Shown piece after piece: positions 12,287 through 29,661 of a stretch of DNA of 35,765 bases; the stretch's first letter is position 1, and each line of letters begins with the position of its first letter. The DNA lies in contig JAJDTA010000057.1 in NCBI GenBank assembly GCA_022827405.1, positions 1-35,765 of the forward strand. The letters are read 5' to 3'. Source of the DNA: Acidimicrobiia bacterium. Lineage in GTDB: Bacteria; Actinomycetota; Acidimicrobiia; Acidimicrobiales; Bin134. The position numbers and the translations under genes were made by a program. The notes under the pieces were generated by a model, which made no database searches, was not told the DNA's origin, and saw only the letters and a program-made list of their open reading frames with translations.

Positions 12287-12383
12287 CGACGCCATTGCGC
12301 TATCGGCCGAAGGCCTCGGCATGGTCGAATACAGGTTTTTCGTGCCTTGACCGATTAGGGCGACGCTGTTATCGTCCTCCGCA

Positions 12384-12414
12384 CTGACTACCATTTGAAT
12401 GGTATATACGGTTT
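12384..12414 (+). promoter_or_regulatory. Shared-motif site A ahead of the BVMO-SDR genes
   Basis: Reverse-strand reading of 12401-12414 gives AAACCGTATATACC, which matches the motif found at three other intergenic sites. In the direction of transcription a weak -35 (CTGACT, 12384-12389) and a weak -10 (TACGGT, 12407-12412) are 17 bases apart, the same layout as sites B and D. Just upstream ACCATT-TG-AATGGT forms an imperfect dyad (12390-12403). A start of transcription near 12419 would exclude the ATG at 12399 as start codon. Confidence 0.45.
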
Positions 12415-12464
12415 ATCGCCATGGGCTGTGGTTGCGTCCGTACTCAAGAACAGGTAGTGGAACA

Positions 12465-14075
12465 GTGAACGAACCAATTTCGGAGAGCGTAGACGTAGTA
12501 ATTATCGGTGCAGGCTTCTCCGGCCTTTACTCAATCTGGAAGCTGCGGGATCAACTGGGGTTGTCGGTGCGCGCCTTCGAAGCCGGCGACGGCGTGGGTG
12601 GCACCTGGTACTGGAACCGCTATCCCGGAGCAAGGTGCGACGTCGAATCGTACGGATATTCATTTTCGTTCGACCCAGAGCTGGAGCAGGAGTGGGTGTG
12701 GACGGAGCGCTTTCCCCCCCAGCGGGAGATCGAAGCCTATTTGAACCATGTCGCCGACCGCTACGACCTTCGTCGCGATTTAGAGCTCGAGACGCGGGTG
12801 ACCGCCGCCACCTTCGACGAGGAAACCGCCCGCTGGACGGTAGAGACCGATACGAACAAGACCGTGAACGCTCGATTCTTAGTAACGGCCGTGGGCTGTC
12901 TGTCGAAACCGAAGGATATCGACATCGAAGGTGTCGACAGCTTCGAGGGCCCGACGTACCGGACCTACGAATGGCCCAAAGAAGAGGTCGACTTTAGCGG
13001 CATGCGGGTTGCCGTTTTCGGCACCGGGTCGACCGGTATCCAAGCAATTCCCGAGATTGGGAAGAAGGCTGCCCACCTCACGGTATTTCAGCGCACTGCC
13101 AACTACAACGTCCCGGCGCGCAACCATGTCCTTACTCCCGAAGAGATTGCAGAATGGAAGTCGAACTACCGCGAGTACCGCCAGGCCGCGGCGGTGTCAG
13201 GGGCGGGCGTTCCGCTGCCGGACCCGAAGCCCTCCGCACTGGCCGCCCCGAAAGAGGAGAGAGACGCGGCGTATCAGTACGGATGGGACACCGGACACAT
13301 CCCTACGATTCTCTTCTCGTACGCAGACATGCTGGCCAGCAAGGAGGCGAACGAGACCGCGGCGCAGTTCATACGCGACCAGATAGCAACCATCGTTGAA
13401 GATCCCGAGACGGCCCAGATGCTCACTCCTACCGACCATGCCTACGGGACCAAGCGGCCGCCGCAGGGAGACGACTACTACGAAACCTTCAATCGCGAGA
13501 ATGTCCGACTCGTAGACTTGCGAAAGACGCCTGTCGAGCGGATCACCCCTAGTGGCGTGGACACGATTGACGAATCGTTCGAGTTCGACGCGATCGTTTT
13601 CGCGACGGGGTTCGACGCCATGGTGGGTGCGCTGAACGCAATCGACATACGAGGACGCGATGGCGCACTGTTGCGCGATGTGTGGCGCGATGGCCCGGAG
13701 TCGTATCTCGGTATCAGCGTCGCCGGATTCCCGAATATGTTCACGATCACGGGCCCGGGAAGCCCCTCGGTCTTTTCCAACATGGTGGTGTCGATCGAGC
13801 AGCACGTCGACTGGATCGGTGATTGCATCGCGTTCCTGGGCGACCGCGGCGCGAGCGGCATCGAGGCGACGGTCGCGGCCCAGGACGAGTGGGTCCAACA
13901 CGTCCGGGAAATTACCGAAGGCACCCTCCATACCGAGGCTGAGTCGTGGTACTCGGGGTCCAACGTACCGGGCAAGCCGCGGGTGTTCATGCCGTACATA
14001 GGCGGCGTCGGGGCATACCGCATCAAGTGCGACGAAGTAGCGGCTGGCGGCTACGAGGGCTTCGAACTCATTTGA
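12465..14075 (+). CDS. Baeyer-Villiger-type flavin monooxygenase, CHMO-like
   Basis: The 536-residue FAD/NADPH enzyme resembles cyclohexanone/phenylacetone monooxygenases, which convert ketones to esters or lactones. The first Rossmann motif is GAGFSG. The fingerprint GGTWYWNRYPGARCD is intact, and the second nucleotide motif is GTGSTG. The classic BVMO signature reads FEGPTYRTYEWP (160-171), with Arg166 in place of the conserved His. The start GTG 12465 is chosen because the alternative ATG 12399 lies inside the probable promoter (site A) and adds a sequence unlike the family. The SDR gene follows after 19 bases, a pairing known from cyclohexanol and cyclopentanol degradation. Confidence 0.87.
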   Translation: MNEPISESVDVVIIGAGFSGLYSIWKLRDQLGLSVRAFEAGDGVGGTWYWNRYPGARCDVESYGYSFSFDPELEQEWVWTERFPPQREIEAYLNHVADRYDLRRDLELETRVTAATFDEETARWTVETDTNKTVNARFLVTAVGCLSKPKDIDIEGVDSFEGPTYRTYEWPKEEVDFSGMRVAVFGTGSTGIQAIPEIGKKAAHLTVFQRTANYNVPARNHVLTPEEIAEWKSNYREYRQAAAVSGAGVPLPDPKPSALAAPKEERDAAYQYGWDTGHIPTILFSYADMLASKEANETAAQFIRDQIATIVEDPETAQMLTPTDHAYGTKRPPQGDDYYETFNRENVRLVDLRKTPVERITPSGVDTIDESFEFDAIVFATGFDAMVGALNAIDIRGRDGALLRDVWRDGPESYLGISVAGFPNMFTITGPGSPSVFSNMVVSIEQHVDWIGDCIAFLGDRGASGIEATVAAQDEWVQHVREITEGTLHTEAESWYSGSNVPGKPRVFMPYIGGVGAYRIKCDEVAAGGYEGFELI

Positions 14076-14094
14076 CGAGAGCAGGACAAGCTCG

Positions 14095-14847
14095 ATGAGG
14101 CGACTTGAAGGACGCAGGGCGCTGGTAACGGGCGGTGCGAGTGGGATTGGAGCAGCGATTGCCCGCCGGTTGGCCAGCGAAGGGGCACATGTGGCCGTAA
14201 CCGACATCGCCGAGGATGACGGCCGGCGAGTAGCGGCAGACATCCGGGACGATGGAGGCCATGCGGTGTTCATCCGGCTCGACGTTGCCGATCAACAGCA
14301 GTGGATAGAGGGAATCGCGGCCACCGTCGAGCAACTTGGCGGGCTCGGCATCTTGATCAACAATGCCGGGATTGGATTCGACGAATCGATCGAGGATTGC
14401 TCTTTGGAGCAGTACGAGACCACGGTGGCGGTAACCCAGACGTCGGTGTTCCTCGGTATGAAATTCGCCGCTGAGCACCTCAAGAATTCTGGGCACGGGT
14501 CGATAGTCAATATCTCGTCCATCATGGGGGCATCGGGTGGCTTCGGAACCTCGCCCGGTTACCACGCGGCGAAGGGCGCAGTCAGATTGCTCACCAAAAA
14601 CGCCGCCCTGCTCTGGGCGACATCGGGTATCCGAGTCAACTCTGTGCATCCCGGGTTCATCGACACGCCGATCATGGATCATGTTCGGGGCACCGAGATG
14701 GAAGAAGCGCTCGTTGCGCTCACCCCGATCGGCCGCCTGGGTCAGGCCGAGGAGGTTGCGGCTGGCGTCGCCTACCTGGCAAGTGACGATGCCTCGTTCT
14801 GCACCGGGTCAGAGCTCTATATCGACGGTGGGTATCTTGCTCGATAG
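14095..14847 (+). CDS. Short-chain dehydrogenase, cyclic-alcohol dehydrogenase-like
   Basis: The 250-residue NAD(P)-dependent oxidoreductase has the cofactor motif TGGASGIG (12-19), NNAG (89-92), and the catalytic Ser142, Tyr156 and Lys160 (YHAAK). The C-terminal YIDGGY is typical. The overall look is that of cyclohexanol/cyclopentanol dehydrogenases and related classical SDRs. It directly follows the BVMO gene on the same strand, so a natural reading is alcohol to ketone (this enzyme) and ketone to ester or lactone (BVMO). The exact substrate is not visible. Confidence 0.86.
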   Translation: MRRLEGRRALVTGGASGIGAAIARRLASEGAHVAVTDIAEDDGRRVAADIRDDGGHAVFIRLDVADQQQWIEGIAATVEQLGGLGILINNAGIGFDESIEDCSLEQYETTVAVTQTSVFLGMKFAAEHLKNSGHGSIVNISSIMGASGGFGTSPGYHAAKGAVRLLTKNAALLWATSGIRVNSVHPGFIDTPIMDHVRGTEMEEALVALTPIGRLGQAEEVAAGVAYLASDDASFCTGSELYIDGGYLAR

Positions 14848-14989
14848 CCACCGTTGTTCGCGCAGGCGTCATCTCTCACAAAACTAGTTCTATCATTTCG
14901 GCTCCAGTTGACTCCTTCCTCTGGCTGGCAGGTGGTGACTGGCCGCCGTGCTCGGCTAAATAGGGCGGGCAAGTCCGATTTCAGGCCGC

Positions 14990-15019
14990 TTGATTTCCCT
15001 CTTATCTATATATATGGTT
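14990..15019 (+). promoter_or_regulatory. Shared-motif site B, promoter of the transporter operon
   Basis: In transcription direction a -35 TTGATT (14990-14995) and a -10 TATGGT (15013-15018) are separated by 17 bases. The -10 lies inside CTATATATATGGTT (15006-15019), whose complement AACCATATATATAG matches the motif at sites C and D. The rest of the intergenic stretch 14848-15141 shows only the short frame listed next. Confidence 0.5.
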
Positions 15020-15051
15020 GACAGAATGAAGCTCAGGGGGTGGAGCTGGTT

Positions 15052-15138
15052 TTGAATGACGCTGATGTCGCCAGTGTGGGCCTCGGGGGTGAGGAGGGGA
15101 GTGGCGCGGGCGGTGCTCTCAGGGCAGGTCGGTGCTGA
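15052..15138 (+). CDS. Possible leader peptide ahead of the transporter operon
   Basis: A 28-codon frame starts at TTG 15052 (or GTG 15040, 32 codons) and stops three bases before the LivH-type ATG at 15142. GGTGGAG lies upstream of the TTG at good spacing, while the main gene has only a weak ribosome-binding site of its own. Translation of this frame could deliver ribosomes to it. The peptide is Gly-rich, with no run of branched-chain codons that would suggest attenuation. It may be chance. Confidence 0.2.
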   Translation: MNDADVASVGLGGEEGSGAGGALRAGRC

Positions 15139-15141
15139 CCA

Positions 15142-17898
15142 ATGAGCGACGTTCTCCAGTTCGCTCTCATTGGGCTCGCCCTAGGCTCGCTCTACTCTCT
15201 TGCGTCCCAAGGGCTGATCGTGATCTACCGGGGATCAGGTGTCCTGAACTTCGCGCACGGCGCCATTGGAATGTTCGGCGCCTACGTCGCTTGGGAGGTC
15301 CGCACCGAGAACGACCTCACGTGGTCGCCGTTTCCTGGCGAGCATTCGTTCCTGGTGGCGTTGATCATCGGTGTGGCCGTGTCGGCTGCGCTCGGGGCAC
15401 TAGCCCACCTTCTTGTGATGCGTCAGCTTCGGCACGCTGCGCCGCTGGCAAGGGTGGTCGCAACCCTCGGAATCCTGATTGTCCTCCAGGCAGGTGCTGT
15501 CATCCGGTATACGTCGAACGTCATATTCCCTCCGGTGGAGCTGCCAAACGAGCAGGTGCACTTCTGGGATATCACGATCACCGTGGACCGGTTCATCCTC
15601 GTGGGCGTCGCTGCTGTGCTCACCCTGATCCTGTGGGCCCTGTACCGCTACTCCCGATTCGGCCTCGCCACCTCGGCTGTGGCCGAGAACCAGCGGGCGG
15701 CTTCGTCCATCGGTCTTTCCTCAGACATGGTCGCGACGATCAACTGGGGGCTTGGATCTGCACTTGCCGGTCTCGCCGCCATCCTCGTCTCGCCGATCAT
15801 CACCCTGTCGGTCAACGGGATGACCAATGTAGTGCTCGCAGCCCTCGCCGCGGCCCTCGTTGCGGAGTTCCGATCATTCCCCATCGCTTTCGCCGCCGGG
15901 ATGGCGATCGGGATTGGTGAGAGCGAACTCACCCGCTACGTCGACCAACCAGGCGTTCCGAAGGCGCTGCCGTTCGCGGTCATCGTCATCATCTTGCTCG
16001 TCAGGGGCAGGGCGTTGCCGGTACGAGGCCACTTTCTCCAGCGTTTGCCGCGGGTGGGACTCGGGCGGATCAGCTGGCCCGGCCTGATCATCGCCATCGC
16101 AGGAGCCGTCATCCTCACGATTTCGGTCCCCCTGGTGTGGCAGGACTCGCTAGTGATCACCTTCGCGACCGCGATCGTGCTCCTTTCAATCGTCGTTGTG
16201 ACCGGTTATGCCGGCCAGCTTTCACTGGGACAATTCGCGATTGCGGGCTTCGGTGCCTGGGTGGCGGGCCGCCTTGTCCATGCCCAGGATTGGCCCTTCA
16301 CCGCGGCCATAGTCGTGGGGGCCCTCGCCACCATACCGCTCGGAGCTCTTTTCGCATTGCCGGCGGTGCGCGCCCGGGGCATCAACCTTGCGGTACTCAC
16401 GCTCGGCCTGGGCGCAGCCCTCGAACTCGTGCTGTTCAACAACGCCAACTACACGGGCGGCTTTTTCGGCACCTTGGTCGGGCGACCCTCATTCTTCGGG
16501 TTGGACATCACATCAACCACCCACCCCGGTCGCTACGCCCTGGTCTGTCTCGGCTTTCTGGTAATCCTGACTCTTGCGGTCGCGAACATGCGACGCGGTC
16601 GAGCCGGCCGGCGACTGATCGCGGTGCGCGCCAACGAGCGTGCCGCCGCCGCCCTGGGAATCAACGTGGTCGGCGCCAAGCTCTTCGCCTTCAGCCTCTC
16701 TGCTGGTATCGCTGCCATCGGCGGCACGCTGCTGGCGTTCCGCAAAGACACCATCCTGTTCAACACCGAGTTCACCAATATCACGTCCATCATCCTCGTG
16801 GGTTGGGCCTTCGTCGGCGGCATCGGTTACCTGGTCGGACCCGTCCTCGGTTCGACGTTCGTAGCAGGGAGTATCGGAACTCGGATTTCGGACTCGCTGT
16901 TTTCCTCGGTTTCGCGGTGGGTTCATCTGATCGGCGGCGTAACAGTGGTGTTGTTGGTGCTGTTTCACCAAAACGGAATCGCCAGTGATTTCGGGGAACT
17001 CGCCAAAGCAGTCCGAGAGCGAATCCGCGGGTTGCTGCGGCGCGGTCGGTCGTCCGATGTGGCCGAGGTGGAGCTGCCCGACGTAGCTCGTGAGCCGATC
17101 AAGCCCAAGACGCTGGTCGTGAAGAACCTAACGGTGCGTTACGGCGGCGTGGTGGCGGTCGATGAGGTGTCATTCACCGTCGAACCAGGGCAAGTAGTGG
17201 GTCTGATAGGCCCAAACGGAGCAGGCAAGACGTCTGCGATCGACGCGATCACCGGGTTCACCAAGGCGACAGGAGAAGTCCAGTTCGGTGGAACTGACTT
17301 CACCCGCCTCGGCCCGGCACGGCGATCGCAGCTCGGTCTGTCCCGGTCATTTCAATCATTGGAGTTGTTCGAGGACGCGACGGTTCTGGACAATCTGCGG
17401 GCGGCGTCGGATCCCCGTGATGGCCTGTCGTATTTGCGGGACCTGGTTTATCCGGTGAATCCACCCTTGCCTGGGCAGGTTTTGGCCGCGATTCGCGAGT
17501 TCGACCTCAGCGAGGACCTGCACCGCCCCGTAGAGGACCTGTCCTATGGCCAGCGTCGGTTGTCGGCAGTTGCCCGGGCTGTAGCGACCAATCCGAGCGT
17601 GTTGCTGCTAGACGAGCCGACCGCAGGGCTTGGCGACAGGCAGACCGCGGAGTTCTCGCACCTTTTGCGCCGCATTGTGGAGGAGTGGGGCATCGGGGTG
17701 TTGATTGTGGAGCACGACATGAGCTTCGTAATGGAGGTCTGCGACTACATACACGTGTTGGATTTCGGCCGCAAGATCGCCGAGGGCACGCCGACCGAAG
17801 TGCAACGCGACCAGCGGGTGATCGCCGCATATCTCGGTGAACCAGAACAGAGTGATGATCCAAGCGAGCTCAAAGAGCCGCGGGTGGGAGCTACATGA
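15142..17898 (+). CDS. Branched-chain-type ABC transporter: LivH-LivM-LivG fusion
   Basis: One 918-residue polypeptide carries three normally separate subunits. Residues 1 to about 290 are a LivH-type permease (QGLIVIYRGSGVLNFAHGA). About 310-620 is a LivM-type permease (TGYAGQLSLGQFAIAGFGA). About 650-900 is a LivG-type ATPase with Walker A GPNGAGKT near 690-697, signature LSYGQRR and Walker B VLLLDEPTAGLG. Such fusions occur in some actinobacteria. The stop overlaps the livF start by four bases (ATGA). With LivF and the lipoprotein at 21278 it makes a complete HAAT-type importer. Family substrates range from branched-chain amino acids to amides and aromatic acids; the catabolic neighbours suggest a carboxylate rather than an amino acid. 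Confidence 0.92.
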   Translation: MSDVLQFALIGLALGSLYSLASQGLIVIYRGSGVLNFAHGAIGMFGAYVAWEVRTENDLTWSPFPGEHSFLVALIIGVAVSAALGALAHLLVMRQLRHAAPLARVVATLGILIVLQAGAVIRYTSNVIFPPVELPNEQVHFWDITITVDRFILVGVAAVLTLILWALYRYSRFGLATSAVAENQRAASSIGLSSDMVATINWGLGSALAGLAAILVSPIITLSVNGMTNVVLAALAAALVAEFRSFPIAFAAGMAIGIGESELTRYVDQPGVPKALPFAVIVIILLVRGRALPVRGHFLQRLPRVGLGRISWPGLIIAIAGAVILTISVPLVWQDSLVITFATAIVLLSIVVVTGYAGQLSLGQFAIAGFGAWVAGRLVHAQDWPFTAAIVVGALATIPLGALFALPAVRARGINLAVLTLGLGAALELVLFNNANYTGGFFGTLVGRPSFFGLDITSTTHPGRYALVCLGFLVILTLAVANMRRGRAGRRLIAVRANERAAAALGINVVGAKLFAFSLSAGIAAIGGTLLAFRKDTILFNTEFTNITSIILVGWAFVGGIGYLVGPVLGSTFVAGSIGTRISDSLFSSVSRWVHLIGGVTVVLLVLFHQNGIASDFGELAKAVRERIRGLLRRGRSSDVAEVELPDVAREPIKPKTLVVKNLTVRYGGVVAVDEVSFTVEPGQVVGLIGPNGAGKTSAIDAITGFTKATGEVQFGGTDFTRLGPARRSQLGLSRSFQSLELFEDATVLDNLRAASDPRDGLSYLRDLVYPVNPPLPGQVLAAIREFDLSEDLHRPVEDLSYGQRRLSAVARAVATNPSVLLLDEPTAGLGDRQTAEFSHLLRRIVEEWGIGVLIVEHDMSFVMEVCDYIHVLDFGRKIAEGTPTEVQRDQRVIAAYLGEPEQSDDPSELKEPRVGAT

Positions 17899-18677
17899 GC
17901 GCCGTCGATAGCTCGTCAAACTCAGACGGCGCCACGGCGCCAGCCCCGGTGCTTTCTGCATGCGGCATCACGGCGGGTTATGGCTCCCAGCCGATGATTC
18001 ACGACATCACTTTGGAGGTCCGCCCCGGGGAGGTCGTGGCTATTTTGGGCGCTAATGGCGCCGGCAAGACAACGACATTGCTCGCTCTTTCCGGCGAGTT
18101 GCCCATTATGGATGGCGAGGTCCGCCTCCACGACGAGCCGACCACAGCGCCGCTTTTCCAGCGGGCTCGCTCGGGCCTTGCGTTCATTACCGAGGAGAAG
18201 TCGGTTTTCATGGGCCTCACCACTCGCCAGAACCTCAAGATCGCCGATGTTGACCTGGAGCGGGCCTTGGAATTGTTCCCTGAGCTCGACAAACGCATCG
18301 ATGTCATCGGCGGCCAGCTCTCCGGGGGCGAACAGCAGATGCTCTCGGTGGCACGCGCCGTGTGCCGCGACCCCAAGATCCTCCTGGCCGATGAGCTCTC
18401 GCTCGGACTCGCCCCTCTTATCGTCAAGCGCCTCCTGGAAGCCGTTCGCACAGCCGCTGGGGATAACAATACCGGCGTACTCCTGGTCGAACAGCACGTC
18501 CAACAGGCCCTCCGCTACGCCGACCGCGCCTACGTGCTGCGACGAGGCCGCATCGAACTAGAAGGCACCGCCGCCGAACTTCAAAGCAGGCTCTCGGAAA
18601 TTGAAGCCAATTACCTCGCCTCGGGAACACAGGACGAGCCAAACCCGAAGCAGGACACGCGGAAGGACTCTCATTGA
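17895..18677 (+). CDS. livF: Branched-chain-type ABC transporter ATPase, LivF-like
   Basis: The 260-residue second ATPase of the HAAT importer has Walker A GANGAGKTT (about 52-60), signature LSGGEQQ, Walker B ILLADELSLGLAP with the LivF-typical SLGLAP ending, and the H-loop in VEQHVQQAL. A Ser/Asp-rich N-terminus of about 20 residues precedes the domain. It overlaps the upstream fusion gene by four bases and the downstream thiolase/hydratase gene by four bases (TTGA). Uptake and a first CoA-ester step are thus translationally linked. Confidence 0.92.
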   Translation: MSAVDSSSNSDGATAPAPVLSACGITAGYGSQPMIHDITLEVRPGEVVAILGANGAGKTTTLLALSGELPIMDGEVRLHDEPTTAPLFQRARSGLAFITEEKSVFMGLTTRQNLKIADVDLERALELFPELDKRIDVIGGQLSGGEQQMLSVARAVCRDPKILLADELSLGLAPLIVKRLLEAVRTAAGDNNTGVLLVEQHVQQALRYADRAYVLRRGRIELEGTAAELQSRLSEIEANYLASGTQDEPNPKQDTRKDSH

Positions 18678-21058
18678 ACGCATCCTCAGGCCAGAAGACG
18701 TCGGCCAACGGGGCCGTGCTCGAGTCGACCGCGGTAATCGTCGGAATCGGTCAGGTGTCGGAGCGAATCGGCGACGACGGCTACCAGTCCCGCTCGCCAG
18801 CCGATTTAGGAGGAGATGCTGCCCGCGCGGCCCTGATCGATGCCGGGGTGTCAGCGGCAGTAATCGAGGTGGTGGCGGCAACTCGACAGTTCGAGGATTC
18901 AAATCCGATGGCAGTGGCGCCGTTGGGGAGGCCCGACAACTACCCGCGGGCGGTGGCGGCCCGCATCGGCGCAGAGCCGGCCCATGCCATTCAGGAAATT
19001 GCGGGCGGCCAGTCACCTCAGAGGTTGGTCACCGAGTTGGCGGAACGGATCGCCCGAGGCGACTGTTCGGCCGCATTGATCGTCGGTGCCGAGGCAATCT
19101 CAACGGCCCAGGACCTCCAGGGTCGTGACGACCGGCCGAGTTGGAGCGAGACGATCGGTGGGCAGCTCGAAGATCGCGGCTACGGAATCGCCGGGATGCT
19201 CTCGCGGGTCGAGACGATGCACGGTCTGACCACCGCTCCCGCCATGTATGCATTGTGCGAGAACGCCCGGCGCGGGGCTAAGGGCATGTCCTTTGAGGCG
19301 CATCTCCAAGAGATGGGCGAGTTGTTCTCCCGTTTCAGCGGGGTTGCCGCGTCCAATCCCCATTCCGCCGCTCCAACCGCCCGCTCGGCGGAAGAACTCA
19401 TCACCGCGACCGACAAGAACAGGGTCATCGCTCACCCCTATACGCGCTACGTGGTCGCGCGGGAAAAGGTCAACCAGGGTGCCGCGGTCCTCATGATGTC
19501 GGTGGCCAAGGCGCGCGAGCTGGGCATTGCCCCCGATCGGTGGGCGTTCCTGCACGGACACGCCGATGCCCACGAGCCGCCCTTGCTCCAGCGCATCGAC
19601 CTCGGCGCCTACCCCGCCGGGGTAGCGGCCATCGAGCACGCCCTCCAAATCGCCGGCATCTCACTCGACGAGATCGGCGCCTTCGACATCTACAGCAGCT
19701 TTCCGATCTCTGTCCTTGCGCTATGTGACGGTTTGAACCTTGCCATCGACGATCCTCGCGGTCTGACCCTCACGGGAGGCCTGCCGTTCTTCGGAGGACC
19801 AGGCAACAACTACTCACTCCATGGGATCGCGGAGGCCGTCTCCTTCGTCCGGGAAAACCAAGGCACCAGAGCACTGGTTGCGGCCAGCGGGGGAGTGATG
19901 TCCAAGTGCAGCGTGGGTATCTACTCCGGCGAGCCTGCTCGGTGGCAGCCAGATCGCAGCGCCGACATCCAGGCGCGACTTGACGCCAACCAGAAGGAGG
20001 AGCTCGCCCGCCATCCAGACGGGCCGGCCTTTGTCGAGACCTTCACGGTGGCCTATTCCCGAGACGGCGCGGAGGGGATTGTGTTGGGACGGCTCGCCAG
20101 CAACGGCCGCCGCTTTCTTGCTACGAGTTCGCGAGACGACGAGGAGATGGTCCACCTGCTCACCTCGGACTCGCCATCGGGGGCGGAGATCTACGCGCGG
20201 TCCTTCGGCTGGGGAAACCGGGTGGCCACGACCCCGGGGGAGATGGATCGCCGATTTCCACCTGACCCGGCCGGATTCCGCGACAGCTACGAGCACATAC
20301 TGGTTCGGCGCGACGAGCACCTGCTCGAAGTAACAATCGACCGGCCTGAGGCTCGAAACGCGCTCACGCCGCAGGCCCATGAGGAACTCGGGGGCGTCTT
20401 TGACGCCTTCTTTTCTGATGATGAGTTGTGGGTCGCCATCATCACTGGAGCCGGCGACGCCGCCTTCTGCGCGGGCGCAGACCTCAAGTACGGGGCATCC
20501 GGCAAGCCCGTCTGGGTCCCCAAGTCGGGATTCGGTGGCTTGACCAACCGTCGGTCGATGCCGAAGCCCGTAATCGCTGCGGTGAACGGTTACGCCTTCG
20601 GCGGAGGCTTCGAGATCGCTCTCGCTTGTCACCTGATAGTGGCCGATGAAACGGCCGAATTCGCTCTTTCCGAGGTCAGGGTCGGGATGTTCGCCGCGGC
20701 CGGCGGCGTCGTAAGACTGCCCAGAGCGATTCCGCGGCATCTGGCCAATGAGATGATTCTGACGGGACGTCGCGCCGGGGCTGAGGAATTGCACCGACTC
20801 GGATTCGTGTCGAGGATCGCTTCAGAGGGCAAGGCACTTGAGACCGCCCGGGAGCTTGCCTTGGAGATCCTCGCAGTGTCACCCACATCGGTACGCGTTT
20901 CGCTGAAGGCGATGAAGGCGGGTGACGAGATCACCGATGCGCTCGACGCCATAGACGCGGGAGACGACTCCATTGACGACCTGCTGCTGTCCGCCGACAT
21001 GGTTGAGGGCATGACCGCCTTCGCAGAACACCGCAAACCCCAGTGGAGAAATCGTTAG
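18674..21058 (+). CDS. Fusion of a thiolase-like protein and an enoyl-CoA hydratase
   Basis: The 794-residue protein starts at TTG 18674 inside the livF stop. Residues about 18-425 are a thiolase-like domain, followed by a small domain (about 450-515) like the extra C-terminal domain of thiolase-like type 1 proteins. Residues about 540-790 are a crotonase. The thiolase part has no nucleophilic Cys at the usual place: IAGGQSPQ (109-116) stands where NxxCxSG is expected, and YSSFP replaces the HEAF region. The crotonase part keeps the oxyanion-hole segments FCAGADL (598-604) and GYAFGGG, and both hydratase glutamates (E647, E667). I expect a working hydratase and a thiolase domain with binding, scaffold or altered activity. 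The gene lies inside a transporter operon. Confidence 0.85.
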   Translation: MNASSGQKTSANGAVLESTAVIVGIGQVSERIGDDGYQSRSPADLGGDAARAALIDAGVSAAVIEVVAATRQFEDSNPMAVAPLGRPDNYPRAVAARIGAEPAHAIQEIAGGQSPQRLVTELAERIARGDCSAALIVGAEAISTAQDLQGRDDRPSWSETIGGQLEDRGYGIAGMLSRVETMHGLTTAPAMYALCENARRGAKGMSFEAHLQEMGELFSRFSGVAASNPHSAAPTARSAEELITATDKNRVIAHPYTRYVVAREKVNQGAAVLMMSVAKARELGIAPDRWAFLHGHADAHEPPLLQRIDLGAYPAGVAAIEHALQIAGISLDEIGAFDIYSSFPISVLALCDGLNLAIDDPRGLTLTGGLPFFGGPGNNYSLHGIAEAVSFVRENQGTRALVAASGGVMSKCSVGIYSGEPARWQPDRSADIQARLDANQKEELARHPDGPAFVETFTVAYSRDGAEGIVLGRLASNGRRFLATSSRDDEEMVHLLTSDSPSGAEIYARSFGWGNRVATTPGEMDRRFPPDPAGFRDSYEHILVRRDEHLLEVTIDRPEARNALTPQAHEELGGVFDAFFSDDELWVAIITGAGDAAFCAGADLKYGASGKPVWVPKSGFGGLTNRRSMPKPVIAAVNGYAFGGGFEIALACHLIVADETAEFALSEVRVGMFAAAGGVVRLPRAIPRHLANEMILTGRRAGAEELHRLGFVSRIASEGKALETARELALEILAVSPTSVRVSLKAMKAGDEITDALDAIDAGDDSIDDLLLSADMVEGMTAFAEHRKPQWRNR

Positions 21059-21277
21059 GCAATTGTCATGACCGCACCATTGTCGTATGCCCGATCCCCC
21101 TTTCATCGGAAGAGATCACAGCCGGATTTGCAAGCAGAGACGAGCGCTGCCGCGGCGTCCCTCTTTGCGATGAAGGTGCCCGACGGCGGCGAGAGAAGAA
21201 CTGAAACGGACTGCGGAGGCAGCACGCCGCCGCGGGCCAACGCAGTAACCAGAGCATTGAACAGGAAGGAATGCGAA

Positions 21278-22609: not shown

Positions 22610-22794
22610 CCGACTCGCTCGCCGGGAGCAAATTCTCCGTCTCGCGCCGTGAAGCGAATCGGCGCAGAGAAAGCAAACCATCCAGATGACAACGGGAGTC
22701 GCTGAGAGCGTCTCCCGGGCAACGACGAATAAGGCGATCTCCGTCGAAAGCGTTCCAGCCCGGGAGGCGCCCTCCGCCTCCTTGTCGCGGACCC

Positions 22795-22826
22795 TTGACA
22801 ATGGTCCGCAAAACCATATATATCGA
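22795..22826 (+). promoter_or_regulatory. Shared-motif site C, promoter of the amidohydrolase-FAH operon
   Basis: A perfect -35 TTGACA (22795-22800) is followed after 17 bases by ATATAT (22818-22823), or after 16 by TATATA, as -10. This overlaps AAACCATATATATCGA (22811-22826), which recurs base for base at 29581-29596. A repressor or activator bound here would contact the -10 directly. The rest of the intergenic stretch 22610-22846 shows nothing clear. Confidence 0.6.
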
Positions 22827-22846
22827 CTAGAGGGATTAGGGCTCGC

Positions 22847-24100
22847 ATGGTCAACAACGAGAAAGAGGATCAGATGAGGATCATCATTGATGCCGACTCC
22901 CATATATGCGAGCCCAAGGACATCTTCACGAGTCGGATGCCAGCGAAATACGGCGATTTGATCCCTCAGGTGAAGCATGTAAAAGAGACGGGAACCGACC
23001 ACTGGTTCGTTGGCGATCGCATAGTGTGGATGGTCACGTCTAGCGTTGTGTTCAAGGGTGCGGATGGTTCATACGAACGACGTGCGACAGTCGACGTGGG
23101 CGAGGGTGAAGATTCGGCGTGGGAGTTGTTCCCAAAGCGATTCGAGGAACAGCATCCGTCGTCTTTCGATCCGAATGAGCGCGTGAAAGTCATGGACGAG
23201 TTCGGAATCAGGGCAGCAGCGACCTACCCGAATCTGGGGTTGGTCAATCCTGATGTCTATCTGGCCGGCGGCCACGATGATCGCGGCTACCAGCGAGCGG
23301 TTGTAGAGGCATACAACGACTGGGTTCTGACCTGGGCCACTGAACAGCCGGGGCGGTTTATTCCGCTAGGCAACGTGCCCTATTGGGACATCGACATGGC
23401 CGTGGGCGAAGTCGTGCGGTGCGCCGAGATCGGTATGAAGGGGCTGGTCATGAGCGGGGTGCCGGAGAGACATGGGTGCCCTTCCTTCTCCGATACGGCG
23501 TGGGACCCGATGTGGGCGGCAGCCCAGGACGCGGAGTTGTCGATCAGCTTCCATGCAGGGGGAGGAGAGTTCGACCGCGGCGAGTATCACACGCGCATCA
23601 TGGGCTCTCAGATCATGCAGATTGCATCGACAGTTGAGGCGTTCATCGGGAACGCGGTTACGGCTATCGATGTTCTCCTTTCGGGAGTGCTTCAGCGATT
23701 TCCCAATTTGAGGTTCGCCATAGTGGAATCAGGAGTGGGTTGGGTGCCCTTCGTTTTGGAGGCTCTCGACGAGCACTACAAGCGTTTTGAACCGTGGCGG
23801 CAAAGGCCGGAGATGAAATCCGACGAGTTGCCCAGTGATCTGTTCCGGCGCCAGATGTTCGTGAACACCTGGTACGAGCGACTCCAAGAACAGTCGAAGG
23901 CGACCCTGCCGGTGGACAACTTGATGTTCGAGACCGACTATCCGCATCCGACCTGCTTGTTCGGGGATGAGATCGAAGACGCGATTGAGAATCGAATGAA
24001 GTCATTGGACGAGCAAGACAAGGAAAAGGTGTTGTTCAGGAACGCAATGCGATGCTTCAACTTGGGCGAGGATTTCCTCGCGTTGGGCGCGCCAGCGTGA
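22847..24100 (+). CDS. Amidohydrolase family 2 (ACMSD-like) protein
   Basis: The 417-residue metal-dependent TIM barrel has the N-terminal DADSHICEP (15-23), in which His19 and Glu22 are expected metal ligands. A middle His lies in SFHAGGG and a late Asp in FETDYPHPT. Two starts are possible: ATG 22847, with TTAGGG upstream, or ATG 22874 (MRIIIDADSH), with AGAGGA upstream. Both lie downstream of the promoter at site C. The next gene follows by 36 bases. The family covers decarboxylases and C-C or C-N hydrolases, so the reaction is open. It is the first gene of an operon with a small barrel protein, an FAH hydrolase and an SDR. Confidence 0.85.
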   Translation: MVNNEKEDQMRIIIDADSHICEPKDIFTSRMPAKYGDLIPQVKHVKETGTDHWFVGDRIVWMVTSSVVFKGADGSYERRATVDVGEGEDSAWELFPKRFEEQHPSSFDPNERVKVMDEFGIRAAATYPNLGLVNPDVYLAGGHDDRGYQRAVVEAYNDWVLTWATEQPGRFIPLGNVPYWDIDMAVGEVVRCAEIGMKGLVMSGVPERHGCPSFSDTAWDPMWAAAQDAELSISFHAGGGEFDRGEYHTRIMGSQIMQIASTVEAFIGNAVTAIDVLLSGVLQRFPNLRFAIVESGVGWVPFVLEALDEHYKRFEPWRQRPEMKSDELPSDLFRRQMFVNTWYERLQEQSKATLPVDNLMFETDYPHPTCLFGDEIEDAIENRMKSLDEQDKEKVLFRNAMRCFNLGEDFLALGAPA

Positions 24101-24136
24101 GTGATGGATAGCCGGGATGCGCCAGGGGAGGCGAAC

Positions 24137-24487
24137 GTGAAAGACAATGTGAAGCGCGTCATGGTGTTCAGCAACGCCGTGACTGGTCGTGACGAGGAGT
24201 TCAACGACTGGTATGACAAGCGCCACCTCCATGATGTGATTGCAGTGGACGGCATCCGGTCCGCTCGACGCTTCGAACTACTCGAGGGAAGTCCGATGAC
24301 CCGAGGCGGTCCCAGCGCCCACCTGTATCTCGCGGTCTATGAAGTTGCAGGCGACCTAGGAGAAGTCGCCGCCGAATTGGCAACGCGACGCGAGGACGGC
24401 CGCATACCTGTGACCGATAGCTACGACATATCGACAACAGTCAGCTCGGTGTGGGTGCCCCGAGGCCCGGGTGTCGTGGCCCCATGA
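24137..24487 (+). CDS. Small dimeric alpha/beta-barrel (EthD-like) protein
   Basis: From GTG 24137 the protein has 116 residues; GGGGAGG five bases upstream supports this start over the in-frame GTG 24101 and ATG 24104. The N-terminal pattern VKRVMVFSNAV, FNDWYDKRHLHDVIAVDGIRSARRFEL is that of ferredoxin-like dimeric barrels (EthD/Dabb class). Such proteins often sit in catabolic operons, where their role is usually unproven. It lies between the amidohydrolase and an FAH-family gene. A comparable small-barrel/FAH pair occurs at 32504-33741 on the other strand. Confidence 0.7.
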   Translation: MKDNVKRVMVFSNAVTGRDEEFNDWYDKRHLHDVIAVDGIRSARRFELLEGSPMTRGGPSAHLYLAVYEVAGDLGEVAAELATRREDGRIPVTDSYDISTTVSSVWVPRGPGVVAP

Positions 24488-24530
24488 TTGCGGTACCGCC
24501 TCAAGGCCGCACACCCCGACGGGAACCGCT

Positions 24531-25562
24531 TTGAAGCTGGTGACCTTTCAACCAGCCCGAGCGGAGCCGCGTCTCGGGATTCTCGACGGCGAAACAGTCG
24601 TGGAGCCAGGACCCGTCCTTCGCGCGGACGAGGCAATGCGCGGCGGGGAGACAGCCGGGGCGAGAGCGCCTGCGGTTGCCGACGAAATGGTTGCCTTCTT
24701 TGAAAGCGGAGAAGAGGGGAAAGGCCACGCACTGAGAGCGCTCGACATTGCTCGGACTCATCGGGAAAGCGGCAATCGACTCATCGACGGCGACGGGTCC
24801 CCGGTGGTCCATGACCTCAGCGGCGTTCGACTGCGTGCACCGGTGCCGCGCCCGCGGCGGGTGCGCGACTATCTCACATACCGGGATCACGCGACCGGTG
24901 GCGGATTGTCGATTCCTCCCGCGTTCGAGGCAATGCCGATCTGCTACCAGTGCAACGCCGAGTCGATCGTCGGGCCCGGGGAACCACTGCTGTGGCCGTC
25001 GTTCACAGATCAACTGGACTTCGAACTGGAGATTGGATTCTTCACTTCGCGGGGAGGACGGAACCTGTCCCCAGCCGAGGCGCAGGGACATATTGCCGGG
25101 GTGACGATCTTCAACGATGTCAGCGCCCGCGACATCCAGGTGTTTGAGATGACGTTGACCATCGGCCCGTCCAAGGGGAAGGACTTCTGCACCGCGATGG
25201 GTCCTTGTGTGCTGACCATGGACGAAGTTGACGAGTGGTCTATTGAGATGAGCGCATCGATCAACGGCGAGTTGTGGGCGTCAGGGACCACGGCAGGGCG
25301 TCAGTTCTCGTTTGCGGAGGTGCTGGCATGGGCTTCGCTGGATGAAGATGTCTATCCAGGTGAGTTTTTTGCCGTGGGGACAGTAGGTGGTGGCTGTGGG
25401 TATGAGCTCGACCGCTGGATCCAGCCCGGTGACATAGTCGAGCTTGAGGCATCGGGCGTCGGGGTGCTGAGCAATCCGGTGGGCGAGAAGCAGACCCACC
25501 GCGACGGTGTTGGCCTGGCGAGTTACCAAGGCTCGCCAGAGGTGCATCCCAGCCATGGTTGA
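24531..25562 (+). CDS. Fumarylacetoacetate hydrolase (FAH) family protein
   Basis: From TTG 24531 the protein has 343 residues and begins LKLVTFQPA, the typical N-terminus. The open frame back to 24471 adds 20 residues unlike the family. FAH enzymes use a divalent metal to hydrolyse C-C bonds of acylpyruvates or to hydrate or decarboxylate related 2-keto acids. The metal triad is visible as the two Glu of DFELEIG and the Asp of FNDVSARD. SKGKDFCTAMGPC is the standard substrate-side motif. It lies between the EthD-like gene and an SDR gene in the same operon. The natural substrate is not readable, but a keto-acid product is expected. Confidence 0.85.
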   Translation: MKLVTFQPARAEPRLGILDGETVVEPGPVLRADEAMRGGETAGARAPAVADEMVAFFESGEEGKGHALRALDIARTHRESGNRLIDGDGSPVVHDLSGVRLRAPVPRPRRVRDYLTYRDHATGGGLSIPPAFEAMPICYQCNAESIVGPGEPLLWPSFTDQLDFELEIGFFTSRGGRNLSPAEAQGHIAGVTIFNDVSARDIQVFEMTLTIGPSKGKDFCTAMGPCVLTMDEVDEWSIEMSASINGELWASGTTAGRQFSFAEVLAWASLDEDVYPGEFFAVGTVGGGCGYELDRWIQPGDIVELEASGVGVLSNPVGEKQTHRDGVGLASYQGSPEVHPSHG

Positions 25563-25607
25563 GCGCTTGGCCGATGCCTGCACCCCGAGGGATGTCCTCG
25601 AGGCGAG

Positions 25608-26393
25608 GTGAGCTCACGCACCTACGCCATCACCGGATCTGCCTCTGGTCTCGGGGCCGAAACTCGTCGCCTGTTGCTTCAACAAGGGCACCGCGTGATC
25701 GGCATCGATCTTCGCGATGCCGAGGTGTGCGTCGACCTCGCCGACGCAGCTGATCGTCGCCGGGCAATCGACAGGGTGGAGGAACTCTCAGCCGGTCGAG
25801 TGAACGCGGTGATCGCGTGCGCCGGAATCAGCGGCGGCACGGGGAGACCAGAACCCATCGTCAGGGTCAACTACTTCGGCACCATCGACATCCTCGAGGG
25901 ATTGCGGCCGCTGCTCGCCCGGTCCAGCGAACCGCGGGCGGTCGCAGTCACATCTGTCGCCACCCTTACGACGGGGTCCGACGATCCTGTGGTTCGCGCC
26001 TGTCTCGACGGAGACGAAGAACGAGCTGTTGCTGCGGCTGTGACAGCTGACCACAACTTGGGGACTGCGGCATACGCCGCTTCCAAGCGCGCCCTGTCGA
26101 TTTGGACCCGGCGGAGGGCGCCCGCAGCCGACTGGGCGGGCGCGGGCATCGCACTGAATGCCGTTGGCCCGGGTCTCATTGCCACACCGATGACGGAATA
26201 CCTCCTGGCACCGGAGAGACGCGCCCAAACTGAGGCTGACGTCCCTATGCCGTTTGGCGGAGTCGGCGAGCCGCGTCACGTCGCGTCCCTTCTCGCCTGG
26301 CTGACCAGCATCGACAACGGGCGGGTCACGGGGCAGGTGATTTTCGTCGACGGGGGCTACGACGTCCTCCATCGCGGCGAGGACATTTGGTGA
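25608..26393 (+). CDS. Short-chain dehydrogenase, 3-alpha-HSD/carbonyl reductase-like
   Basis: The 261-residue oxidoreductase starts at GTG 25608. The nucleotide motif is TGSASGLG (9-16). IGIDLRDAEVCVDL, VNYFGTIDILEGL and the catalytic Ser116/Tyr156/Lys160 (YAASK) give it the look of the 3-alpha-hydroxysteroid dehydrogenase/carbonyl reductase group. The C-terminus FVDGGYDVL is standard. It likely interconverts an alcohol and a ketone in the pathway of its operon; a steroid substrate should not be assumed. The stop is one base from the stop of the opposing CoA-transferase gene. Confidence 0.84.
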   Translation: MSSRTYAITGSASGLGAETRRLLLQQGHRVIGIDLRDAEVCVDLADAADRRRAIDRVEELSAGRVNAVIACAGISGGTGRPEPIVRVNYFGTIDILEGLRPLLARSSEPRAVAVTSVATLTTGSDDPVVRACLDGDEERAVAAAVTADHNLGTAAYAASKRALSIWTRRRAPAADWAGAGIALNAVGPGLIATPMTEYLLAPERRAQTEADVPMPFGGVGEPRHVASLLAWLTSIDNGRVTGQVIFVDGGYDVLHRGEDIW

Positions 26394-26394
26394 C

Positions 26395-27585
26395 TCAGTT
26401 GATAATGCCAGCGTCTCGCAGACTGGCAATGTCGCCGGCCGATCGGCCCAGTTCGGCCAAGATGGCGTCGTTGTCCGCCCCGCGGAGTGACGCGGTCGCG
26501 GCGAGCGTTGCGGGGGTGGCCGAGAAGCGGGCTGCGGGCCGGGGTTGGCGGATGGGCCCGGCGAGCGGATGTTCCCAGATCTGGAGGGTCTCGTTGTGGA
26601 GCACTTGCGGGTCAACCAGAGCTTCCTCCGCGTCGAGCACCGGTCCGCAGGGGACGTCTGCGGCTATGAGCCGCTCCAAGGCCTCGGTGACCGCGATGGC
26701 GGAGAATGCATTGGCCACCAAGACGCCCAAGGTGGCGAAGTTCTCGGGGTCTGCGATTGCCCCGTCGCGAAAGCGCGGATCGTCGATCCATTCTGGGTGT
26801 CCAAGCGCCTCAAAGAGGCCATGGCGCTGCTGGTCGGTGGCCACGAAATAAACGATCTTGCCGTCGGCGCATTCAGTGAGGTTGTAGACGGTTGACATGA
26901 GGATTCCGGGAGAGGCGTCTGCGGCTAACACCGTCTTGTCCACCATCCCGTCGGGCCAGAAAAAGCTCATGGCGGCATCAAGCATCGGGACTTCGATGTG
27001 TTGACCTCCTCCTCCCTGCTCTCTGACCAACAATGCCGCGGTGATCGCCTGGGCCGCGGTAAGCGCGGTGCTCTTGTCGGCATACAAATTGCGGACCAGA
27101 TCCGGAAACGGAATCTCAGGGTTGAGCTGCCGCGAGATCATGCCGATGAGCCCTTGGATCACTGGGTCGAGAACAGGCCGTTCGCGATAAGGACCCGTGC
27201 TGCCGAACCCCGATACCGAGCAGTAGACGATGTCGTTGTTGAGTTCCTTGACCGTGTCGTAGTCGATTCCCAATCTCTCCACGACGCCCGGCCGGAAGTT
27301 CTGAACGACGACATCAGACTTGACGGCCACCTCAAGCACGATCTCCCGACCGGCGTCGCTGGCCATGTCCACAGCAAGGCAACGTTTGCCCCGGTTGTTG
27401 TTCAGATAGAACGCCGAGAGCCCTGCTTTGGAAAAATATGGCAGGCGGGAGGCGTCGCCGACGCCCGCTATTGGCTCAACCTTGATCACGTCAGCGCCCT
27501 GGTCGGCAAGGATCATTGTGGCCAGCGGACCCGACACTATTTGGCTGAGGTCGAGCACCTGCACGCCGGAAAGTGGTCCGGGCAT
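26395..27585 (-). CDS. CaiB/BaiF family (type III) CoA-transferase
   Basis: The 396-residue enzyme moves CoA between carboxylic acids without ATP. The N-terminal SGVQVLDLSQIVSGPLA and the segment ADVIKVEP are typical, as is VVVQNFRPGVVERLG. The catalytic Asp is D170 in NLYADKSTALT. Length matches the family. It is the last gene of the leftward amidohydrolase/SnoaL operon, 55 bases behind the SnoaL-like gene, and runs tail-to-tail into the SDR gene. It would activate a pathway acid to its CoA ester, perhaps one made by the neighbouring amidohydrolases. Confidence 0.9.
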   Translation of the reverse strand: MPGPLSGVQVLDLSQIVSGPLATMILADQGADVIKVEPIAGVGDASRLPYFSKAGLSAFYLNNNRGKRCLAVDMASDAGREIVLEVAVKSDVVVQNFRPGVVERLGIDYDTVKELNNDIVYCSVSGFGSTGPYRERPVLDPVIQGLIGMISRQLNPEIPFPDLVRNLYADKSTALTAAQAITAALLVREQGGGGQHIEVPMLDAAMSFFWPDGMVDKTVLAADASPGILMSTVYNLTECADGKIVYFVATDQQRHGLFEALGHPEWIDDPRFRDGAIADPENFATLGVLVANAFSAIAVTEALERLIAADVPCGPVLDAEEALVDPQVLHNETLQIWEHPLAGPIRQPRPAARFSATPATLAATASLRGADNDAILAELGRSAGDIASLRDAGIIN

Positions 27586-27640
27586 CAGAGTCCTTCCGTC
27601 AACTTAAGCGCCCCAACCGCCTAGTAATAGGAGTTGGGAG

Positions 27641-28210
27641 TCAGCGCCACGGTGTGAAGGATCCCGCGCGGAGAACTTTGTCGGGTCGGGGTCCGTGAAC
27701 CCATCGGTAGTACCGGTACGACAGGCGCCATCGGTCATTCTCAAATCGGAACCGCTGAAGACAGTCGATGATCGGAAGCGGTTCTACTTCCAACAGATCA
27801 TCGGGAGAATCGGAATCGATCTGAGTTCTGTTGTCGAAGTAGACCATCCAATGAAGACACTCGACCTCGGTGTCGGACAGCATCTCCCACTGGAAATTGG
27901 TGAGGATGTGCGTGCGCCAGTAGCGGTGATCGGAGGGCAGCGTCTCTACCTCTCGTTCCTGTTGGGCACGGTGCTCCTCTATTCCCTCGACCCGCCTCAC
28001 CGTGGGGGGGCTCGCCACATCATCGACAATCTCACGTACAAAGTCATCGGTGACGTATTCGAGTTCGTCCAGCACGCGGCGATACTCTCCTAGCCGGTAC
28101 ATGCCGGCGATCAGGTTGGAGCAGGCCATGAACGCTCGCAGCTCGCGGTCGGTCGGCTCCTTGCCCATCTCCGGATGCGGCAACCCGAAGTACTCGCGCA
28201 TTTCCATCAT
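27641..28210 (-). CDS. SnoaL/NTF2-like or dioxygenase-beta-like small protein
   Basis: The 189-residue protein starts at ATG 28210, which overlaps the upstream amidohydrolase stop by four bases. The pattern of an N-terminal helical part, VTDDFVREIV, then several strands (THILTNFQWEMLSDTEVECLHWMVYFDN) and the ending FRFENDRWRLSYRYYRWVHG resembles the cone-shaped NTF2/SnoaL fold shared with ring-hydroxylating dioxygenase beta subunits. No dioxygenase alpha subunit is present. The role could be isomerase, hydratase or accessory; I do not recognise a specific subfamily. Confidence 0.6.
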   Translation of the reverse strand: MMEMREYFGLPHPEMGKEPTDRELRAFMACSNLIAGMYRLGEYRRVLDELEYVTDDFVREIVDDVASPPTVRRVEGIEEHRAQQEREVETLPSDHRYWRTHILTNFQWEMLSDTEVECLHWMVYFDNRTQIDSDSPDDLLEVEPLPIIDCLQRFRFENDRWRLSYRYYRWVHGPRPDKVLRAGSFTPWR

Positions 28211-29496
28211 GGATTCCTACTTCTTTCTGTGGTGAACGCGTTCTTTGCGGAACTGTCATGGACAAGGGCATCCATCCAGGATGGATCGACGGTGTGCCGG
28301 AACAGCCGGCTGGCGTTGCCGTGCATCATCAGTGCAACCTCTTCAGCGGTCGCGTCGCCCATTTGGCGGTGGAGGATCTCTTGGGTGTTGGGCCAAGTGC
28401 CGTCGCCGTGCGGGTAATCCGACTCGACGAGGAGGTGGTCGACGCCGATGTAGTGCCGAAGAGCGATTCCAGCCGGGTCGTCGAGGACGCAGAAATAGAA
28501 ATTGCGCTTCAGCACCTCAACGGGTTCGACGCCCTCGCCGACCCATGTGCCGAAGAACTCGTGGTACTTGAACGAGTGCTTCAAGCGGTCGATCAACCCG
28601 GGGACCCAGGAGACGCCACCCTCGGTGAGAACAATCCGGACTTCGGGGAACTTCAGGGGGATCTTGGAGTACACCCAGTCCACGGCGGCGTGCCAGGCGC
28701 TCATCGGGAACAGTGCTGCGGCTACGTCGGGGGGCGCGTCGGGCGATGTCGTCGGAGTGGTCGACGACGATCCGACATGGAGGCAGATGACCGTCTCGGT
28801 TTCCTCGCATGCGGCGATGAGCGGGTCCCAGTGACCCGAGTAGAGGCTTGGGTATCCAAGCTTGTGGGGCGACTCTGTGAACGACAGCGCCTTGAAGCCT
28901 CGTTCGGCGTTGCGCCGCACCTCACCCGCGGCCACAGATGGGTCGTTGAACCAGGTGATCTGGCAGGGGATCATCCGGTCGGGGTAGGTACCACACCACT
29001 CTTCGAGGTACCAGTCATTCCAGGCCCGCAAGGTGGCTAGTCCCAGGTCTTGGTCTTGCAATTCGGAGAAGCGCTGCCCCGCAAACCCCGCCAGCATCGA
29101 CGGGAAGCAGATCGACGCGTAGACGCCGTTGATGTCCATATCGTGGATCCGGGCGTGGATGTCCCAGCACCCCCGGCGCATGTCCTCGGTGCGGGCTGGC
29201 TCCACCGTGTATTCCGCGGGAGGGCGACCGGCGACTGCGTTGAGCCCAATGTTGGGCAGTTCTATGTCCTCCATTCGCCAAACCTGTCGGCCGTCGTCGC
29301 GTTCGACCATCATCGGTGCCCTGTCGGCGAACTTCGACGGCAAGCGACCGGCGAACAGGTCGGGAGGCTCGACGAGATGGTCGTCGACCGAGATAATCGG
29401 GAAGTACCGGTGACGCGGCTCAGGCTCCGGGAGGAAAGTGACCGTGTCGGTGCCTTCGGTGCGGAATGCGTCGGCGATTGATTTCTCTTCTGTCAC
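28207..29496 (-). CDS. Amidohydrolase family 2 (ACMSD-like) protein
   Basis: This third metal-dependent TIM barrel has 429 residues from GTG 29496. GGAG lies eight bases upstream, and the longer frame to ATG 29553 adds a Cys- and Gly-rich stretch not typical of the family. Metal-site landmarks are ISVDDHLVEPPDLF (His and Glu ligands), the His of CLHVGSSS and the Asp of VESDYPHGDG. It heads the leftward operon with the SnoaL-like and CoA-transferase genes, behind the promoter at site D. The DxHxxEP pattern groups it with the amidohydrolase at 22847 rather than with that at 11033. Confidence 0.84.
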   Translation of the reverse strand: MTEEKSIADAFRTEGTDTVTFLPEPEPRHRYFPIISVDDHLVEPPDLFAGRLPSKFADRAPMMVERDDGRQVWRMEDIELPNIGLNAVAGRPPAEYTVEPARTEDMRRGCWDIHARIHDMDINGVYASICFPSMLAGFAGQRFSELQDQDLGLATLRAWNDWYLEEWCGTYPDRMIPCQITWFNDPSVAAGEVRRNAERGFKALSFTESPHKLGYPSLYSGHWDPLIAACEETETVICLHVGSSSTTPTTSPDAPPDVAAALFPMSAWHAAVDWVYSKIPLKFPEVRIVLTEGGVSWVPGLIDRLKHSFKYHEFFGTWVGEGVEPVEVLKRNFYFCVLDDPAGIALRHYIGVDHLLVESDYPHGDGTWPNTQEILHRQMGDATAEEVALMMHGNASRLFRHTVDPSWMDALVHDSSAKNAFTTERSRNP

Positions 29497-29580
29497 CGAT
29501 TCATCTCCGCATCCACCAGTGCCCCCATCGGCGCGATCCTCGCACTGTTGCATTTGAATGGAGCAGGCCCAGCACTCCCT

Positions 29581-29611
29581 AAACCATATATATCGAATAT
29601 CTGAATTTCAA
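29581..29611 (-). promoter_or_regulatory. Shared-motif site D, promoter of the leftward amidohydrolase operon
   Basis: On the minus strand a -35 TTGAAA (29611-29606) and a -10 TATGGT (29588-29583) are 17 bases apart. The -10 lies inside the complement of AAACCATATATATCGA (29581-29596), the same 16 bases as at site C. Layout and -10 hexamer are the same as at site B. The gene start lies about 80 bases downstream. Confidence 0.55.
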
Positions 29612-29661
29612 GAGTGGTTCAATGTCAATCGTGCCCAGCAATAGAGGGGGCGGTGGCTTGC

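Follow-up and report, generated by a model that had tools for sequence, protein, structure and literature searches.

A recurrent AACCRTATATA motif as the probable operator of a cluster-specific regulon in a catabolic island of an Acidimicrobiia bacterium

Contig JAJDTA010000057.1 of an Acidimicrobiia bacterium (assembly GCA_022827405.1), analyzed here over its full 35,765 nucleotides (the window), carries four copies of the motif AACCRTATATA, designated sites A to D (Table 1), in an accessory island. The likely function of the motif, which lies over predicted sigma-70-type -10 boxes ahead of a BVMO/SDR operon, a branched-chain-type ABC uptake operon, and two amidohydrolase operons, is that of an operator for a single transcription factor dedicated to the cluster. 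An earlier, sequence-only reading had joined these operons into one regulon, and that proposal gained ground: the copies are nearly confined to the island, a match lies on the corresponding promoter of a related cluster in another family of the same order (genome G077), and these sequence comparisons give good support to one regulon specific to the cluster. The bound protein, probably a repressor, would block RNA polymerase until a pathway compound released it, and uptake and breakdown would then be switched on together. Repression by blocking is suggested by two features of the motif: its position over the predicted -10 at B, C, D, and the G077 site, and its use in both orientations. The uncharacterized catabolic island thus gains a testable regulon, with operon membership, a control site, and one candidate regulator, the GntR protein encoded at 35081.

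All four copies reported in the sequence-only reading were found, in exact form, at 12403-12413 and 15009-15019 on the minus strand and at 22812-22822 and 29582-29592 on the plus strand. Allowing one mismatch still gave four matches in the window; dinucleotide shuffles averaged 0.08 matches, and not one of the 100 reached that number. For exact copies, Markov models of order 1-3 with the window composition predict 0.001-0.003 in a window and 0.12-0.30 in a genome, which bears out the claim that such an AT-rich word should be rare by chance. Although the word is short (11 bases), chance repetition is rejected by these counts and is exceedingly improbable. Non-coding DNA, which makes up ~7% of the window in our own gene list, holds all four sites, a status that for sites A and D hinges on the choice of start codon: the longest open reading frame (ORF) at site A opens with an ATG at 12399, within the site, and the G077 BVMO match begins shortly past a GTG at 12459, while comparison with G077 placed the start of the amidohydrolase gene behind site D (AH_D; that behind site C is AH_C) at 29493 instead of 29553.

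The whole assembly (3.77 Mb in 237 contigs, 95.67% complete with 5.34% contamination) contains five exact copies of the motif, the four in the window and one on contig C167, within a reading frame whose translation, judged by eye, is phytoene/squalene-synthase-like. For at least four of five exact copies to fall on the window contig, which is <1% of the assembly, P is ~4e-8. Outside the window there are four one-mismatch copies (on C167, C56, C195, and C229), all inside long ORFs, that on C167 being in a hopene-cyclase-like frame (named by eye). Counting every place with at most one mismatch, the assembly has nine, compared with 11 for the reversed control. The exact motif is missing from 92 of the 94 loci compared, and the two loci that have it belong to the same genome as the window. 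The possibility that the motif is a genome-wide style of -10 box is ruled out by these genome counts, because the remaining copies in the assembly are few and all lie within ORFs; the refuting condition named in the sequence-only reading, a similar frequency ahead of unrelated genes, was therefore not borne out. The motif is concentrated at the promoters of a single functional cluster and shows no such enrichment in the rest of the genome.

A 20-column matrix built from the four window sites scores them at 27.7 (A), 31.3 (B), 33.0 (C), and 35.2 bits (D), and the best score in 160 kb of other contigs of this genome is 13.3 bits. Leave-one-out matrices, to which the G077 site was added, recover sites B, C, and D. 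The matrix also marks a weak, degenerate fifth candidate in the divergent promoter region at 33820, whose score of 12.0 bits is matched by two places in the same 160 kb.

The sequence-only reading had set a -35 element exactly 17 bases before a hexamer inside the motif at B, C, and D, with a weaker CTGACT-N17-TACGGT at A. All four strings exist, but the reading of them as promoters did not hold equally. At site C, TATATA at N16 after TTGACA is a better -10 than ATATAT at N17, and operon A has a rival promoter candidate upstream of the motif, TTGACC-N17-TATCGT, which is nearer to consensus than the string at site A; its -10 ends 28 bases before the motif, and one such site was seen versus 0.9 expected from shuffles of the region. 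A consensus promoter scanner picks up D and neither B nor C, and the site D region contains three promoter-like sites versus 2.1 expected. Among the eight TAYGGT words in the window, a TTG at N17 spacing accompanies two, namely those of B and D.

It could be argued from TTG-N17-TATGGT at B, D, and the G077 site, and from CTG-N17-TACGGT at A, that the motif is a mere -10 form (TATATATGGT) of a general sigma factor that has no dedicated regulator. We regard this as unlikely, since the motif is nearly confined to the island within the genome and its conserved AACC/GGTT extends past any single hexamer. The GGTT strand is codirectional with transcription at A, B, and D and opposite at C, and the reversal at C favors a protein site over a promoter hexamer. 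Furthermore, the extended pattern TTG-N18-TATAYGGTT gave 46 matches in 38 of 397 genomes of the order; this does not exceed the reversed control (72, summed by hand), so outside both clusters the pattern looks like background.

Sites C and D have 16 identical bases in common, as would be seen if the four copies were promoter DNA duplicated within the island without selection. However, the flanks are unlike beyond ~16 bases, the orientations differ, and a close match occurs at the corresponding promoter in another family, which together make duplication very improbable. Inverted repeats accompany two of the sites (Table 1); that of GCGGACCCTTG-A-CAATGGTCCGC, whose centre falls on the -35 of the site C promoter, may be a second operator. 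The string CATTTGAATGG is found at 12392-12402 and 29551-29561, in the site A and D regions, with no other copy in the window.

Only one place in the G077 genome (3.8 Mb) matches the motif with no more than one mismatch. It reads TTGCCC-N17-TATGGTT and is followed ~40 bases downstream by a gene judged MhpD/FAH-like by eye, the first in a close-packed run of MhpD-like, FAH2, E1a, E1b, lipoyl, E2, and AH_D genes; the window has the order FAH2-E1a-E1b-lipoyl-E2-AH_D, with site D immediately ahead of AH_D. On the 99-kb G077 contig that carries the cluster (C38), the window-site matrix ranks this place first at 23.9 bits, and the next independent place scores 8.4. With a rough promoter area of 10 x 250 bases, a random match would fall on a cluster promoter with P ~7e-4. 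The sequence-only reading had called for the motif to be sought at orthologous promoters: it is present at that of the G077 odh-amidohydrolase operon and absent from the BVMO/Liv and AH_C promoters, where another motif is found. Conservation is thus gauged from one promoter in one comparison genome.

Several observations weigh against a conserved operator of one regulator. The number of one-mismatch matches in G077 is at background (the reversed control gives two), so that the place of the match and its extended similarity are what speak for the site. The G077 BVMO/Liv and AH_C operon promoters are without the motif, and the genes directly behind the G077 site are only moderately similar to those of the window (33-57%), apart from AH_D at 86%. 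A third genome with the cluster was not found in the draws from the order and class. Within the window, site A is an outlier that is not in the top six places listed when it is left out of the matrix, site B is recovered narrowly (20.4 bits versus 17.5 for the reverse strand of C), and the right half-sites are weak and the dyad therefore imperfect. In addition, the full TKGT-N2/3-ACMA form expected of FadR-subfamily operators is at none of the four sites, with a partial TGGT-TG-ACAG at site B.

A different motif was spotted in AT-rich stretches of the G077 contig. This inverted repeat, ATCTnACGT-N3-ACGTnAGAT, scores at least 19 bits at eight C38 places (47904, 54075, 59641, 68854, 68991, 80610, 96185, and 97539), in a symmetrized matrix built from seven of the eight, so that 59641 is the one independent place. 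The places are mostly ahead of cluster genes, and include the BVMO/Liv, AH_C, and SDR promoters. The motif is absent from the window, where the best score is 8.2 bits; best scores elsewhere are 1.8 in another 40 kb of G077 and 12.1 in the 160 kb of contigs from the window's genome. Seven of the 21 G077 copies of ACGTNAGAT are on C38, one of them within the LivHMG coding sequence, and the reversed control occurs once in the genome; the corresponding P of ~7e-7 is too favorable, since one site contributes both its arms to the seven. The contig also has, at C38:64868-65335, a gene that looks MerR-like by eye. Both motifs occur in the promoter region of the MhpD-like operon, the window type at C38:47651 and the ACGT type at 47904. 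The G077 promoters with the ACGT motif may represent a possible operator replacement. More tentatively, the same cluster and the same GntR gene might be wired by unrelated cluster-wide operators, AACCATATATAT at four promoters here and the ACGT motif at about eight places in G077, with the dual-motif promoter a preserved step in replacement of the whole regulon through a swap of regulator or a change in its specificity. The comparison may offer a natural example of cluster-wide operator turnover, with most operators changed and the regulator gene kept.

The protein encoded at 35081 contains a GntR winged helix-turn-helix domain (PF00392, 1.2e-16) and an FCD domain (PF07729, 1.7e-21), the domain composition of the FadR subfamily. 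It and the neighboring ApbA protein are conserved along with the cluster (72% and 71% identity in G077), and no other regulator was recognized in the cluster part of the window, where not every ORF was scanned with profiles. It is the likeliest single candidate for binding the motif, although we hold the predicted binding to be somewhat doubtful, and we rate a regulator gene past the contig end, or at another locus, about equally likely. FadR-subfamily operators usually have the form TKGT/ACMA with two or three bases between GT and AC (PMC4494728), and the link to the GntR protein is weakened because the window motif does not fit this form. The sequence AATGGT-CT-ACCATT does fit TKGT-N2-ACMA (33878-33887) and lies ahead of ApbA-GntR, as a candidate operator of the GntR protein's own operon; the full form is also found at three other places in the window.

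An alternative of comparable standing is that a regulator outside the window binds the motif, and the 35081 GntR acts on AATGGT-CT-ACCATT and the G077 ACGT sites. These sequences hold the FadR-subfamily GT-N2/3-AC core as described in that source (GT-N3-AC in the ACGT motif), which the window motif mostly lacks, and the GntR proteins of the window and G077 have the same recognition stretch, VGRPTLREALR, so that one binding form would be expected. On the other hand, the window motif and the GntR gene occur in both clusters, whereas the ACGT motif was seen in G077 only, and no other regulator was recognized in the cluster part of the window, where some of the ORFs were scanned with profiles. The same source mentions exceptions within the subfamily, such as NanR and BioR, and indicates that proteins of 60-70% identity may bind distinct motifs (PMC4494728). 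We weigh two readings nearly equally: either the GntR protein departs from the usual form of its subfamily and binds the window motif, or another protein binds it.

The operons behind the sites are, as the sequence-only reading held, catabolic or concerned with transport. By Pfam matches, operon A encodes a BVMO-like flavin monooxygenase and an SDR; operon B a thiolase-like/enoyl-CoA hydratase (ECH) fusion, spanning 18674-21058, and a periplasmic binding protein, together with a fused LivHMG and a LivF named by eye. Operons C and D each start with an Amidohydro_2 protein (Pfam), followed in C by an EthD-like protein (by eye, with no Pfam match), an FAH-like protein (below cutoff), and an SDR (by eye), and in D by a SnoaL-like protein (by eye, with no Pfam match) and a CoA-transferase (below cutoff). 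G077 carries much of this cluster, with identities of 86% for AH_D, 83% for the SnoaL-like protein, 82% for AH_C, 81% for LivHMG, 78% for FAH1, 76% for LivF, 70% for the SDR, 68% for both the BVMO and the binding protein, and 63% for the EthD-like protein. On the odh side the values are 57% for E1b, 55% for E1a and the lipoyl protein, 45% for FAH2, and 33% for E2. Three window proteins, namely the first amidohydrolase (11033), the second SDR, and the CoA-transferase, lack a close counterpart in the part of G077 compared.

Among 298 genomes of the order, the thiolase/ECH fusion was found at E <= 1e-120 in its own genome, in G077 (76-77%), and in G136 (47%), the last with no further close cluster gene within the 32 kb compared. 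Relatives of AH_C reach 42% at best in 21 same-genus genomes and 50% in Mycobacterium sp. 4858, and a class-wide draw of 395 genomes returned AH_C from its own genome only; the best AH_D relative outside G077, among 397 genomes of the order, is 61% identical. No similar cluster was seen among the named loci in a comparison that took in genes of at least 38% identity; the nearest locus (L051) pairs a 57% identical BVMO with a 38% identical thiolase/ECH. Relatives of the GntR protein at 43-48% identity occur in three other genomes, and these loci are without the motif, since TATATA is missing from the 3.6-kb pieces around them. Judged by title, no paper retrieved deals with such a BVMO/amidohydrolase/GntR cluster, and among the matches listed for the motif letters the titles are all on unrelated subjects.

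The left part of the window aligns to same-genus genomes: 1-3577 to G006 at 85%, and 4348-10798 to G012, G003, and G006, mostly at 85-94% DNA identity with one stretch at 73%, an alignment gap at ~6.9-7.4 kb in G012 and G003, and the final 107 bases of the G006 match at 78%. An acyl-CoA synthetase encoded at 8773-10443 reaches 95% identity in this genus. These alignments rule out, for the left part, a misbinned contig. The match to all three genomes stops at ~10.8 kb, right after a cold-shock-like gene (by eye). Across the 15.7 kb that follow in G012, tblastn at 1e-10 found no match to any window protein, and tblastx gave short pieces only among the matches listed. Because the same-genus match ends and window proteins are absent beyond it in G012, we take ~10.9 kb to the contig end to be an accessory island. 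Tetranucleotide correlations of the right part are 0.75-0.93 with pieces of its own and same-genus genomes, 0.85 with G077 C38, and 0.79-0.82 with other-family pieces, values too similar to one another to assign the island an origin. No tRNA genes were found in the window. Left of the island, 3662-4330 has the look, by eye, of a ribbon-helix-helix antitoxin and PIN-domain toxin pair (VapBC-like), within a segment, 3578-4347, for which G006 gives no alignment. The best non-island matrix place in the window, at 3618 (14.2 bits), is in the promoter stretch ahead of this pair.

Table 1. Positions of the motif sites and associated features in the window
Feature	Position	Strand	Sequence and context
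Accessory island with all four sites	10906..35765		Left junction near 10798-10906; right end past contig
Site A	12401..12414	-	AAACCGTATATACC; ahead of BVMO (12459-14075) and SDR (14095-14847)
Site B	15006..15019	-	AACCATATATATAG; ahead of LivHMG, LivF, thiolase-like/ECH, and substrate-binding protein genes
Site C	22811..22826	+	AAACCATATATATCGA; ahead of AH_C (22847-24100), EthD-like, FAH-like, and SDR genes
Site D	29581..29596	+	AAACCATATATATCGA; ahead of AH_D (28207-29493, minus strand), SnoaL-like, and CoA-transferase genes
Promoter candidate over site B	14990..15018	+	TTGATT-N17-TATGGT
Promoter candidate over site D	29583..29611	-	TTGAAA-N17-TATGGT
Alternative promoter candidate, operon A	12347..12375	+	TTGACC-N17-TATCGT, TG ahead
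Inverted repeat	12389..12404		TACCATT-TG-AATGGTA; abuts site A
Inverted repeat	22787..22809		GCGGACCCTTG-A-CAATGGTCCGC; over -35 (TTGACA) of site C promoter
Degenerate fifth site candidate (weak)	33820..33839	-	GCTAACTAGATATACAGATT; divergent promoter region FAH2-odh / ApbA-GntR; 12.0 bits
Candidate operator of ApbA-GntR	33876..33889		AATGGT-CT-ACCATT
FCD/FadR-type GntR, candidate regulator	35081..35765	+	Truncated by contig end

Compared with known systems, the arrangement resembles sigma-70-type promoters in the TTGnnn-N17-TATGGT of B, D, and the G077 site, but the window motif is longer, island-specific, and reversed at C. The best NCBIfam model for the 35081 protein is NanR, at a score below cutoff (105.6 bits, cutoff 260). 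The NanR operator is described as (GGTATA)3 direct repeats (PMC8012715). Site A has one TGGTATAT, the sole TGGTATAW in the window, whereas B, C, and D have none and no window site repeats GGTATA, so that neither the direct repeats nor a score above the model cutoff places the protein with NanR. The catabolic regulons of FCD-type GntR proteins such as HypR, LldR, PdhR, and GlcC usually have TKGT/ACMA operators, unlike the window motif, which is AACCATATATA with a weak right half. They share with the island a cluster-encoded FCD GntR and, as predicted for the island, control over several operons and an operator over the -10; in the case of HypR, the -10 covered is that of its own promoter (PMC6608401).

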